DNA from: Verrucomicrobiota bacterium
GTDB taxonomy: Bacteria; Verrucomicrobiota; Verrucomicrobiia; Chthoniobacterales; UBA10450
NCBI GenBank assembly: GCA_003218975.1
Contig: QHPD01000102.1
Location: forward strand, 1 to 64,000
DNA length: 64,000 nucleotides
Direction of reading: 5' to 3'
Positions 55,173-58,378 of the stretch are shown piece after piece. The position numbers and the translations under genes are program-made. Position 1 is the first letter of the stretch. Every line of letters begins with the position of its first letter. The notes under the pieces were generated by a model. It was not told the origin of the DNA and did not search any database. It was given only the letters and a program-made list of their open reading frames with translations.

Positions 55173-55985
55173 TCAGTGCTGTTCCGCATTTGTAACGGCA
55201 ATTGTTGATTGACGCTGCTTCACTGCATCGCGGTAGCGCAAAATTCCGTCGCTGACCGCCGCGGCAATTTCCTCCCGGTAATCTTCGCTGGCGAGCTTGG
55301 AAATGTCCTCTTTATTCGTAAGAAATCCACCTTCTACCAGAACAGCGGGGCAAGTGACATTTGAGATCACAAAGAACTGTTTCGCCTTGGTGCCCCGGTC
55401 GAGCGCCCGCGTGCGTGCCACCAGCGCTCCCTGAATAAAAGCGGCAAGGCTTTGGCTTTCAAAATTTGGCGATTCGGAAAGTGCGCGCCACAGAAAAGGC
55501 AGCCACGAAGCCGCGAATGAGCCCCCAGTAATTTGATGGGCCGCGTAATAAGTTTCGACTCCAGTGGAAACGGGCCGGTTATCTTCGTTGAAATGAATGC
55601 TTATCAGGATGGAATCTCGTACGCGATTGGCGAGCGCCGCGCGATCGGCCAGTGAAACATAGCTGTCGCCCACGCGCGTCATCACGGTAGCGATCCCGTC
55701 CGCCTCCAATAGCCGTTCGATCCGTCGGGCCACATCCAGGGTCAGATCTTTTTCAAGCACGCCACCGCAGATGGCACCCGAGTCTTGGCCGCCGTGGCCG
55801 GGATCAAGAACTACTACTACGAACGGCTTAGGCGTGGGCTGCGGCTGCGCGATCTGCGGTTTCACCGGCCGCTGCCGCCCCGGGATTCGCTGCATCCAGA
55901 CGAAGGAGGCGATCATCAGCAACAACCCTGCCAAGGCCAGTATGCTCCCTATGGTTTGTCTTGCTCGTGGTCTTTGGCCGAACAT
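55173..55985 (-). CDS. N-acetylmuramoyl-L-alanine amidase (Amidase_3)
   Basis: 270 residues. An N-terminal membrane anchor (TIGSILALAGLLLMIASFVW) leads to a zinc amidase: VVVLDPGHGGQDSGAI (zinc His), a Glu in GGVLEKDLTLDVARRIERLL, ILISIHFNEDNRPV (zinc His) and the catalytic Glu in PAVLVEGGFLTNKED. It cleaves the amide between MurNAc and L-Ala in peptidoglycan. It lies 13 bp downstream of prcA on the same strand, an unexpected partner for proteasome genes. Confidence 0.92.
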   Translation of the reverse strand: MFGQRPRARQTIGSILALAGLLLMIASFVWMQRIPGRQRPVKPQIAQPQPTPKPFVVVVLDPGHGGQDSGAICGGVLEKDLTLDVARRIERLLEADGIATVMTRVGDSYVSLADRAALANRVRDSILISIHFNEDNRPVSTGVETYYAAHQITGGSFAASWLPFLWRALSESPNFESQSLAAFIQGALVARTRALDRGTKAKQFFVISNVTCPAVLVEGGFLTNKEDISKLASEDYREEIAAAVSDGILRYRDAVKQRQSTIAVTNAEQH

Positions 55986-55998
55986 TTCTCTCCATATT

Positions 55999-56778
55999 TT
56001 ATTCGTGAATCAATGCGCGCAGTTCCTTATCCAGTAATGAACGATAGCGAATTGCCCGGCTCGCGTCGCGCTCAAGTATTCCGGCTTCAACTCCAGCTTT
56101 GGCGAGTTGCTCCTGTCGATATTTCGTAATGGCGGTGCGTTCCGGAAGTTCTTTTGCGTCGCTTGTCTGCAAAGTCATATGTCCAATGCTCCAGGCATCG
56201 AGCCCGGATTTGAGCGCTGCTTCAAAACCGGCGTCCGGCGAATGTTCGGCTTGCAGAAATGATTCCATCTGCTCGCTCGATTGCCGGGTTCCGCTCAGCA
56301 CAGCGAAATCCCGCCGCGCCTGCGTGAAGGTTGCGCCGTTGCTTGCAATCTCGCCGTCATAATCGACCCGCAGGAACAAATCTTCTTCAGGCCGATCGCC
56401 GACCTCGGCAAAAAGCATCCGCGCCAGATAAGGCGCGCCATATACCTGTTCGAACGCCCCCTTCATCACCGGACTGAGCGAATAATGCACCAGCCGCCGC
56501 AGCGAAACATCGGCCGCTGAGCGAGTGAAGCCTTCGGTGCTAGCCAGCTCGATGGCCGCCATCCGCAGCCGCTCGATGTCCCCTGGATGACCAATGGCGC
56601 CCATGGCAATGCGGTCGTAAATCTCAAAAAGTTTCTGCCGTCTCTGACCGAAGGTGAGAAACAAGATGCCATCGCGATAGCCAAGCGCCACGATAGGACT
56701 GCCCGAGGCGAGCTGCATTTCGATGTACTCGCGGCGGTTGGCGATCGCTTCAACCCAACGATACGGCTCTTCGATCAT
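55999..56778 (-). CDS. prcA: proteasome alpha-type subunit
   Basis: 259 residues of Ntn-hydrolase fold without a catalytic N-terminal Thr. EEPYRWVEAIANRREYIEMQLASGSPIVALGYRDGILFLTF, RIAMGAIGHPGDIERLRMAAIELASTEGFTRS and PYLARMLFAEVGD are recognisable alpha-subunit stretches. The N-terminal helix that gates the pore is present. It overlaps prcB by four bases (ATGA). Bacterial alpha subunits of this divergent, non-actinobacterial type occur with UBact. The ring-shaped unfoldase that would dock on it is not in the window. Confidence 0.85.
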   Translation of the reverse strand: MIEEPYRWVEAIANRREYIEMQLASGSPIVALGYRDGILFLTFGQRRQKLFEIYDRIAMGAIGHPGDIERLRMAAIELASTEGFTRSAADVSLRRLVHYSLSPVMKGAFEQVYGAPYLARMLFAEVGDRPEEDLFLRVDYDGEIASNGATFTQARRDFAVLSGTRQSSEQMESFLQAEHSPDAGFEAALKSGLDAWSIGHMTLQTSDAKELPERTAITKYRQEQLAKAGVEAGILERDASRAIRYRSLLDKELRALIHE

Positions 56779-57602
56779 GCGACCGTTTCTTTAAACACGG
56801 CAGCGATTTTGCTTTCCGGCAAGGTCCTGATGCCTTCGCGCGAGACGATCTTGATGAGCGGATAGATTTTCCCGCTGCGATCCACGCCGCCCGTCGATGT
56901 GTCGGACTCCGCAGCCGTGTCCAGCGCGCGCAAGGCAATCGATATCGCTTCGTCCTCGCTCGTTTTTTGCAGCGGCTTCCCGCCCCAGTTATTTTCGTAA
57001 TAAAGAATGCCGCGCACGGCCGGCGACCCCGACCCGGTCGCGGCGTAGTCGGCCGCTTCAAACTGCGCGCCCATAGCGTCGTAAAAATAGAGTCGCGCCT
57101 CCGGTTTCGGATGAGAATTGTACGTCGCGAAAATCGGCACTACTACTCCCACTCCTTGCATGACGAAGCCGATGTTGTCCCGCAACAGCTTGGAAAGCGC
57201 GCGCACCTTGCCATCCACGCTCATTTCCTGTAGTTGCGTGCGTCGGAAATATTGAAACGAATGTTCGAGCACGCGCGCCATTTCCCACGCCGTCGCCGGC
57301 ACGCCTGCGATTGCCATGATCGATTGGCGATCGATTTCCAGTACTTTGTCGGCGCGATCGTAGACGACAGTATTGCCAGCCGTGGCGCGCCGATCGCCAG
57401 CCACTAGCACGCCGCCAGAAAACTTGAACGCGAGAATGGTAGTGGCCTCCGTTGGCTGCCACGATTTTTGGTGCGGCGTCGCCACCGGAGAAGTCGAAGT
57501 GACAGTCGCCGGAGCGAGTAACCCTTTGCGCCTGAGCAATGCGGGAAAATCGTCGGCCGTGCCGGAAAAATGTGGCCCAAGCGTCACCAGGGACGGCTCC
57601 AT
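56775..57602 (-). CDS. prcB: proteasome beta-type subunit
   Basis: 275 residues. A propeptide of 53 residues (containing DFPALLRRKGL, as in actinobacterial PrcB) precedes the catalytic N-terminus TTILAFKFSGG, with Thr54 as Thr1 of the mature enzyme, Asp in AGDRRAT as Asp17 and Lys in DRADKVLEI as Lys33: the full proteasomal triad. AIAGVPATAWEMARVLEHSF, YDAMGAQFEAADYAATGSGSPAVRGIL complete the fold. It is the proteolytic core of a 20S-type proteasome. Its ATG overlaps the stop of the UBact gene by one base (TAATG). Confidence 0.93.
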   Translation of the reverse strand: MEPSLVTLGPHFSGTADDFPALLRRKGLLAPATVTSTSPVATPHQKSWQPTEATTILAFKFSGGVLVAGDRRATAGNTVVYDRADKVLEIDRQSIMAIAGVPATAWEMARVLEHSFQYFRRTQLQEMSVDGKVRALSKLLRDNIGFVMQGVGVVVPIFATYNSHPKPEARLYFYDAMGAQFEAADYAATGSGSPAVRGILYYENNWGGKPLQKTSEDEAISIALRALDTAAESDTSTGGVDRSGKIYPLIKIVSREGIRTLPESKIAAVFKETVA

Positions 57603-57778
57603 TATTGGCCGGTGCGCTGGCGATAGCGCTTGGACTGGTTAGGATCGACCTTGCGCATTTTTTTTAAAAGATCCTTGGTGTCCGGCCGTGAAACGTCGGG
57701 TGAACGCGGGCCGCCGCCATCGCCTTGTTTGGGTCCCCACGGAACTGGATCGAGTGGCTTTTGAATGCGCTCTGGCAT
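57602..57778 (-). CDS. ubact: UBact, ubiquitin-like/Pup-like protein modifier
   Basis: 58 residues from the ATG at 57778: a short, charged, probably disordered protein opening MPERIQKPLDPVPWGPKQGD, with RSPDVSRPDTKDLLKKMRKV in the middle and the C-terminus DPNQSKRYRQRTGQ. This matches the UBact family described in Nitrospirae, Verrucomicrobia and related phyla: a Pup-like tag whose C-terminal Gln or Glu after Gly is joined to Lys of target proteins, sending them to the proteasome. A Gln end implies activation to Glu by a Dop-like deamidase first. Direct one-base overlap with prcB and the same strand as prcA support the call. A frame extension to 57811 is unlikely. Confidence 0.9.
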   Translation of the reverse strand: MPERIQKPLDPVPWGPKQGDGGGPRSPDVSRPDTKDLLKKMRKVDPNQSKRYRQRTGQ

Positions 57779-57783
57779 AAAAA

Positions 57784-57811
57784 AATCTAAGGGCAAATAT
57801 TGGAAAGGCAA
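57784..57811 (-). promoter_or_regulatory. possible promoter of the UBact-proteasome operon
   Basis: On the reverse strand TTGCCT (57806-57811) and TAGATT (57784-57789) are 16 bp apart, ending only 6 bases from the UBact ATG. No Shine-Dalgarno is present, so translation could be leaderless or use another mode. This is a weak call by eye. Confidence 0.25.
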
Positions 57812-57895
57812 GCGATCCCGCGCCGTGGGTCTCGCAAAATTCGGCTACCGCCCCACGCTTGCCAGGCAAAGCGGCCGATGCCAACATTCGGGAGG

Positions 57896-58378
57896 ATGAA
57901 GATCCTTCCTGTTGTTGCTGCTGCGTTTTTCTTCAGCGCGGGGCCGTTCCCTTCGGCGTGGGCGCAAGCGCCGTCGCCAGAATCGTTGAAATCGCCCGAG
58001 CATGCTCAACTCGAAATGTTGGCAAAAAAAATCGACGAACAGAACGCAAAGATCGACGCGCTCTCTCAGGAGATCCTGAAACTAGAACAGCAGCTTTCAC
58101 ACGTTCGCCCGGGCGTAATGATTGGAGAGAGCACGCCTGCGACTCCTACGGCAGGCGCTCCGGCCGAATCTGCGTCGCGTCCTGAGAATGGCAACACACA
58201 CGTGGTTGCCCGCGGCGAAACGCTCACATCTATCGCAAAATTGTACAGAGTAAGCGTGGATGAATTGCAAAAGGCCAATCACATCGAAGACGGCCGTAAA
58301 CTGCAGGCCGGACAGACAATCATCATTCCTGCGGCGTCATCGCCCGCGCCGTCTGTTTCCCCGCCACCACCCAATTAG
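57896..58378 (+). CDS. exported LysM-domain protein
   Basis: 160 residues. Signal peptide (ILPVVAAAFFFSAGPFPSAWA), a coiled coil (LEMLAKKIDEQNAKIDALSQEILKLEQQLSHV, about 38-70), a Pro/Ala spacer and a single LysM domain (THVVARGETLTSIAKLYRVSVDELQKANHIEDGRKLQAGQTIIIP) that binds glycan. A Pro-rich tail ends the protein. ATG at 57896, or 57878 with six more residues. It is divergent from the UBact operon with a spacer of about 115 bp. Confidence 0.85.
   Translation: MKILPVVAAAFFFSAGPFPSAWAQAPSPESLKSPEHAQLEMLAKKIDEQNAKIDALSQEILKLEQQLSHVRPGVMIGESTPATPTAGAPAESASRPENGNTHVVARGETLTSIAKLYRVSVDELQKANHIEDGRKLQAGQTIIIPAASSPAPSVSPPPPN

Follow-up and report, generated by a model that had tools for sequence, protein, structure and literature searches.

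Introduction

The closest described relative of the locus reported here is the UBact-proteasome system, which is attributed to Lehmann et al. (2017, BBRC 483:946) in PMC12751074. UBact is one of only a few ubiquitin-like degradation systems in bacteria and it is almost unstudied. Verrucomicrobia belong to its known hosts. The second system to which the locus can be compared is the Pup-proteasome of Actinobacteria, consisting of Pup, the ATPase Mpa/ARC, the 20S subunits PrcAB, the enzymes Dop and PafA, and Bpa, and the occurrence of Dop/PafA in Verrucomicrobia has been reported (PMC7947786). In mycobacteria, Mpa opens the gate of the 20S particle with its C-terminal residues GQYL, the Tyr of which touches Arg26 or Glu119 of PrcA, while the carboxylate can pair with PrcA Lys52 and the Gly backbone with Asp144 (PMC9599533; PMC12288473). 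The penultimate Tyr is described as being required in mycobacteria (PMC12288473), and contacts of the Mpa beta-grasp with the 20S particle are known as well (PMC9599533).

The stretch of 64,000 nucleotides analyzed here, referred to as the window, derives from contig C122 of a genome of 3.06 Mb that is 97% complete. The window contains a UBact-prcB-prcA operon, and it is highly probable that these three genes supply the tag and the protease of a complete UBact-proteasome system that functions in the manner of the Pup-proteasome. The six components, the catalytic residues, the operon and the lack of Pup and HslV were read from the sequence and we infer each biochemical step from these. The system belongs to the UBact-proteasome kind already known, and its host is a soil member of the Chthoniobacterales with a genome related to Ca. 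Udaeobacter; UBact, PrcB, PrcA, ARC, Dop and PafA are all present, and the tag carries the C-terminal RTG[QE]. It differs from the described system in that UBact-prcB-prcA stands apart from ARC-Dop and from PafA, and in that a gene for a cell-wall amidase comes next. The features of the window are as follows:

57602..57778, minus strand: UBact, a basic, ubiquitin-like (Pup-like) modifier of 58 aa with C-terminal Arg-Thr-Gly-Gln (matches to NF033388 and PF20513)
57605..57607, minus strand: codon CAA of the C-terminal Gln of UBact (read from the sequence)
56775..57602, minus strand: prcB, 20S proteasome beta subunit, 275 aa including a propeptide of 53 aa (TIGR03690, PF00227)
57441..57443, minus strand: codon of the catalytic Thr1 of mature PrcB (residue 54, aligned with residue 1 of the mature beta chains 1q5q and 2fhg)
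57393..57395, minus strand: codon of Asp17 of mature PrcB (residue 70; sequence and alignment)
57345..57347, minus strand: codon of Lys33 of mature PrcB (residue 86; sequence and alignment)
55999..56778, minus strand: prcA, 20S proteasome alpha subunit, 259 aa (TIGR03691 and structure model)
56632..56634, minus strand: codon of PrcA Lys49, equivalent of the activation-pocket lysine Lys52 of M. tuberculosis PrcA (alignment of 81 PrcA)
55173..55985, minus strand: N-acetylmuramoyl-L-alanine amidase (Amidase_3; PF01520, 172.5 bits), 13 bp downstream of prcA

The UBact Gene and Its Product

A preliminary description of this DNA had proposed a 58-codon UBact-like gene with a Gly-Gln end, and this assignment is borne out by both curated UBact models: the 58-aa protein scores 83.8 bits with NF033388 (cut-off 35) and 81.9 bits with PF20513 (cut-off 27.8), far above the cut-offs and beyond what chance would give. 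The frame starts with ATG, stops with TAA and encodes a protein ending with ...RYRQRTGQ, of which RYRQRTG is invariant across the aligned UBact relatives. The open reading frame is short and has both TTG and ATG starts on offer, as might be expected if it had arisen by chance ahead of a proteasome operon acting on untagged substrates. However, this explanation is contradicted by the model scores, by the maintenance of the 58-codon frame beside prcB-prcA in approximately 90 genomes and by the codon-position pattern, as 71% of the pairwise differences in the last 40 UBact codons fall on third positions (22606, 11983, and 84301 at positions 1, 2, and 3, respectively). We regard the chance frame as refuted, its probability being close to nil. 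Since the frame is kept beside prcB-prcA and shows this third-position excess, it can be taken to be translated and under purifying selection.

UBact shares with Pup the character of a disordered tag, the Gly-Gln or Gly-Glu end and two helices near the C-terminus. In the predicted structure the helices span residues 32-43 and 48-56, inside the final 27 residues, at a mean confidence of 68, which is modest; Pup bound to PafA and Dop also has two helices, which comprise residues 44-53 and 57-64 on Dop (PMC8599861). However, UBact is basic (net charge +7, pI 10.4), whereas the Pup of Nonomuraea is acidic (-13, pI 4.2). It is likely that UBact and Pup share the same mode of action and unlikely that they are cross-recognized.

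The 20S Proteasome Genes prcB and prcA

All three genes are encoded on the minus strand, for which the preliminary description had given no orientation, in the order UBact (57778-57602), prcB (57602-56775), and prcA (56778-55999). The coordinates agree with the overlaps described before: UBact and prcB share one base, the final A of the UBact stop codon TAA being the A of the prcB ATG (57602), and prcB and prcA share four. PrcB matches TIGR03690 with 170.5 bits (E 4e-50) and PF00227 with 99.7 bits, and its best match in the PDB is M. tuberculosis PrcB (E 2.5e-30). In the alignment with actinobacterial beta subunits, residue 54 falls on the first residue of the mature chain; the propeptide therefore comprises 53 residues, and the same alignment confirms Thr1, Asp17, and Lys33 behind it, as had been claimed. 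PrcA is more divergent, reaching 21.8 bits with PF00227 (cut-off 22.4) and 77.8 bits with TIGR03691 (E 8e-22), the latter also under the curated cut-off. It can nevertheless be assigned the alpha-subunit fold, on the basis of the TIGR03691 E-value together with the match of its predicted model to M. tuberculosis PrcA; the best PDB matches of this model are mycobacterial PrcA structures (prob 1.00), the pLDDT of the model being only 65. The N-terminal gate segment of PrcA, MIEEPYRWVEAI (56778-56740), ranks with the best-conserved stretches of the verrucomicrobial protein and is unlike the actinobacterial gate. In two draft genomes (loci L046 and L048) prcB lies in two overlapping frames, probably due to assembly frameshifts.

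Homologues of ARC, Dop and PafA Elsewhere in the Genome

The remaining components were looked for in the rest of the genome, where the preliminary description had suggested that a Dop/PafA-like ligase and an ARC/Mpa-like ATPase should be sought, and homologues of all three are present. Contig C123 encodes an ARC/Mpa-like AAA ATPase (TIGR03689, 446 bits, under the cut-off) and, directly downstream in the same orientation, a Dop homologue (TIGR03688, 479.7 bits, slightly under the cut-off of 492.3). This ARC-Dop pair adjoins guaA. A PafA homologue starts contig C101, its best NCBIfam match being PafA TIGR03686 with 325.5 bits (cut-off 551.3); its start lies 5 bases from the end of the contig. 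The scores under the curated cut-offs probably reflect that these were set for actinobacterial orthologues. These findings support the preliminary interpretation of the operon, together with the UBact models and the prcB and prcA genes.

The assignment of the two ligase-type homologues can be refined by their active-site features. The Dop protein has an insert of the length of the Dop-loop, Trp47 and the catalytic Asp94, the Trp and the Asp being present in 9/9 verrucomicrobial Dop rows, whereas the PafA-like ligase has the Asp94 equivalent (12/12) and lacks Trp47 and the Dop-loop, in place of which it carries a segment of 18 residues vs. 46-52 residues. Compared to the families with solved structures, each enzyme scores best with its own, Dop with 399 bits for Dop vs. 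263 bits for PafA and the PafA-like ligase, nearly equidistant, with 238 bits for PafA vs. 232 bits for Dop. In the Dop/PafA tree all Dops fall on one side with a support of 93/91, and a verrucomicrobia-only grouping is not rejected (p-AU 0.34); an independent duplication of Dop/PafA within Verrucomicrobia is neither favored nor rejected.

Homologous PrcA, PrcB, ARC, Dop, and PafA are thus what the host shares with the actinobacterial Pup-proteasome. Differences are that no match to the Pup model (PF05639) was obtained in the genome, the C. glutamicum control being positive, and that no match to Bpa was found, although here the control was silent as well, so that the absence of Bpa is not proven. 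HslV was not detected in the genome either, in which only two proteasome-fold proteins were found while the controls were positive.

Based on these components, a course of tagging and degradation can be proposed by analogy. UBact, mostly disordered, would be made with a C-terminal Gln, which Dop would deamidate to Glu; the PafA-like ligase would then use ATP to activate the Glu side chain and join UBact to substrate lysines, a tagging that Dop could reverse. The N-terminal coiled coil of ARC would capture the tagged proteins, which the ATPase ring would unfold and feed into the 20S chamber of PrcA/PrcB, in which Thr1 of PrcB, freed from the propeptide, would cut them. This genome-wide parts list makes reconstitution of the system possible.

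The C-Terminal Residue of UBact and Deamidation

The last residue of UBact is Gln in 67 and Glu (GAA or GAG) in 22 of 89 loci, and a tree of 81 species built from PrcB+PrcA requires at least 12 changes between Gln and Glu. It is reasonable, by analogy to Pup, that the Gln end requires prior deamidation. Such frequent interchange at visibly unchanged gene content could also mean that deamidation is unneeded, either because the Gln form is used directly or because the Gln/Glu state is neutral to a ligase that accepts both. However, actinobacterial PafA working with ATP requires the Glu form (PMC7947786), and the genome encodes a Dop with a conserved active site, by which the switch becomes nearly neutral without any new ligase chemistry; we therefore judge dispensable deamidation to be quite improbable. 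Gln-ending and Glu-ending relatives alike keep Pup-ligase homologues, and both enzymes to the extent that the MAGs reveal, so that the co-occurrence of Dop does not discriminate between these explanations. Most simply, Dop would be retained in order to reverse tagging, and its presence would leave the Gln/Glu state almost neutral. The repeated switch represents a natural test of the purpose of the deamidation step.

The ARC C-Terminus and the Activation Pocket of PrcA

A further difference from the Pup-proteasome concerns the contact between ATPase and 20S particle, for which the actinobacterial side of the comparison was taken from Nonomuraea, from the solved M. tuberculosis and Rhodococcus sequences and from published work. 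The host ARC ends with V/I-I/V instead of GQYL, and its PrcA lacks Arg26 and Glu119. Verrucomicrobial ARC was represented by 45 distinct C-termini, of which 41 have Val and 4 have Ile in the penultimate position, followed by a final Ile or Val; none of the 45 has the penultimate Tyr of GQYL/HbYX, whereas the Nonomuraea control ends with GQYL. Within the last 15 residues of these 45 tails, variability is lowest at positions -1 and -2 (0.80 and 0.43 bits vs. 2.3-3.5), and the linker ahead of them is variable. The pocket residues were read from an alignment of 81 verrucomicrobial PrcA with those of M. tuberculosis and Nonomuraea. In this alignment the equivalents of Lys52 and Asp144 are each present in 81/81 proteins, the Arg26 equivalent in 0/81, and Glu119 is replaced by Leu in 81/81. 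As verrucomicrobial and mycobacterial PrcA are only approximately 25% identical, the loss of Arg26 and Glu119 alone is unsurprising and constitutes weak evidence. Taken together, the fixed Leu119, the fixed Lys, and the fixed tail suggest that the carboxylate anchor has been retained while the hydrophobic pocket was rebuilt.

ARC might accordingly dock onto the 20S particle via its hydrophobic Val-Ile/Val-COOH tail, the carboxylate of which would pair with the PrcA pocket lysine, and without the tyrosine of the mycobacterial Mpa type. We give about an even chance to a gate key free of tyrosine, in which ARC V-[I/V]-COOH would meet a rebuilt alpha pocket keeping the carboxylate-lysine anchor only, and which, together with the charge-reversed tag, would make the system a specificity-insulated sister of the Pup-proteasome. 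In another explanation, which we hold to be rather unlikely, the ARC tail is not used on the 20S particle: docking would rely solely on the beta-grasp hairpins and alpha H0 helices, or a different activator carrying a regular HbYX tail would open the gate and ARC would mainly act in unfolding the tagged proteins. This would account for a tail lacking the Tyr that mycobacteria need, and it is in line with the beta-grasp contacts of Mpa and with the existence of additional activators in Actinobacteria. However, conservation within the tail is highest in its two terminal residues, which follow a variable linker, and the pocket Lys of PrcA is invariant; that Bpa was not found argues in the same direction, its silent control leaving the absence unproven. 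The combination of a Tyr-less ARC tail with an altered PrcA pocket is new in that no description was found in the literature searched, and it calls into question the view that docking of proteasomal ATPases needs a penultimate tyrosine. A shorter coiled coil of ARC was also considered as a strong difference and was set aside, as the part preceding the OB domain is only modestly shorter and its net charge is near zero.

Distribution and Gene Order in Relatives

In a sample of 289 genomes from across the phylum, UBact scores over the cut-off in 10, namely in the host's own family, in another family of the same order and in a family that is probably Methylacidiphilaceae, as judged from its particulate methane monooxygenase genes. 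UBact matches at loci L013 and L014 are below the cut-off and were taken as chance. UBact is common in Chthoniobacterales and Methylacidiphilaceae. Relatives are encoded in 325 stretches of GTDB contigs, and the best 80 of these 325 are named Verrucomicrobia, Spartobacteria, Chthoniobacterales or Ca. Udaeobacter and are mostly soil MAGs. Ca. Udaeobacter is a very abundant soil lineage, and UBact hosts include soil bacteria related to it.

In Methylacidiphilaceae the genes form one operon, ARC-Dop-UBact-PrcB-PrcA-PafA, which ties all six components together, and in Chthoniobacterales UBact-PrcB-PrcA forms a separate cassette. A Pup-ligase homologue is present in 50/50 UBact genomes searched, most of them having two (about 550 and 420 bits) and with these both Dop and PafA, and ARC was found in 35/37. 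A few relatives show a third, weak match to the proteasome fold, which may be Anbu-like (G298:C1:12879-13460, G299:C74:12893-13474, G329:C41:145573-146157, and G331:C21:30295-30576). A viral or mobile origin was rejected, as viral contigs contain no UBact relative and phages no PrcB relative, and as the matches of the Dop query in a plasmid collection are two actinobacterial records only, one of them of 11.85 Mb.

Neighboring Genes

Of the 75 relatives whose sequence extends far enough, 55 have the Amidase_3 gene within 3 kb downstream of prcA on the same strand, mostly at less than 40 bp. This is a feature of most Chthoniobacterales (relatives L025-L104), and the gene is absent from that place in Methylacidiphilaceae. 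It is probable that it represents a fourth member of the UBact operon, and its position a few bases past prcA in most Chthoniobacterales suggests that the proteasome is co-transcribed with peptidoglycan hydrolysis. Upstream of UBact, a divergent LysM-domain protein gene (57800-58378 in the window) is kept in 57 of 70 relatives.
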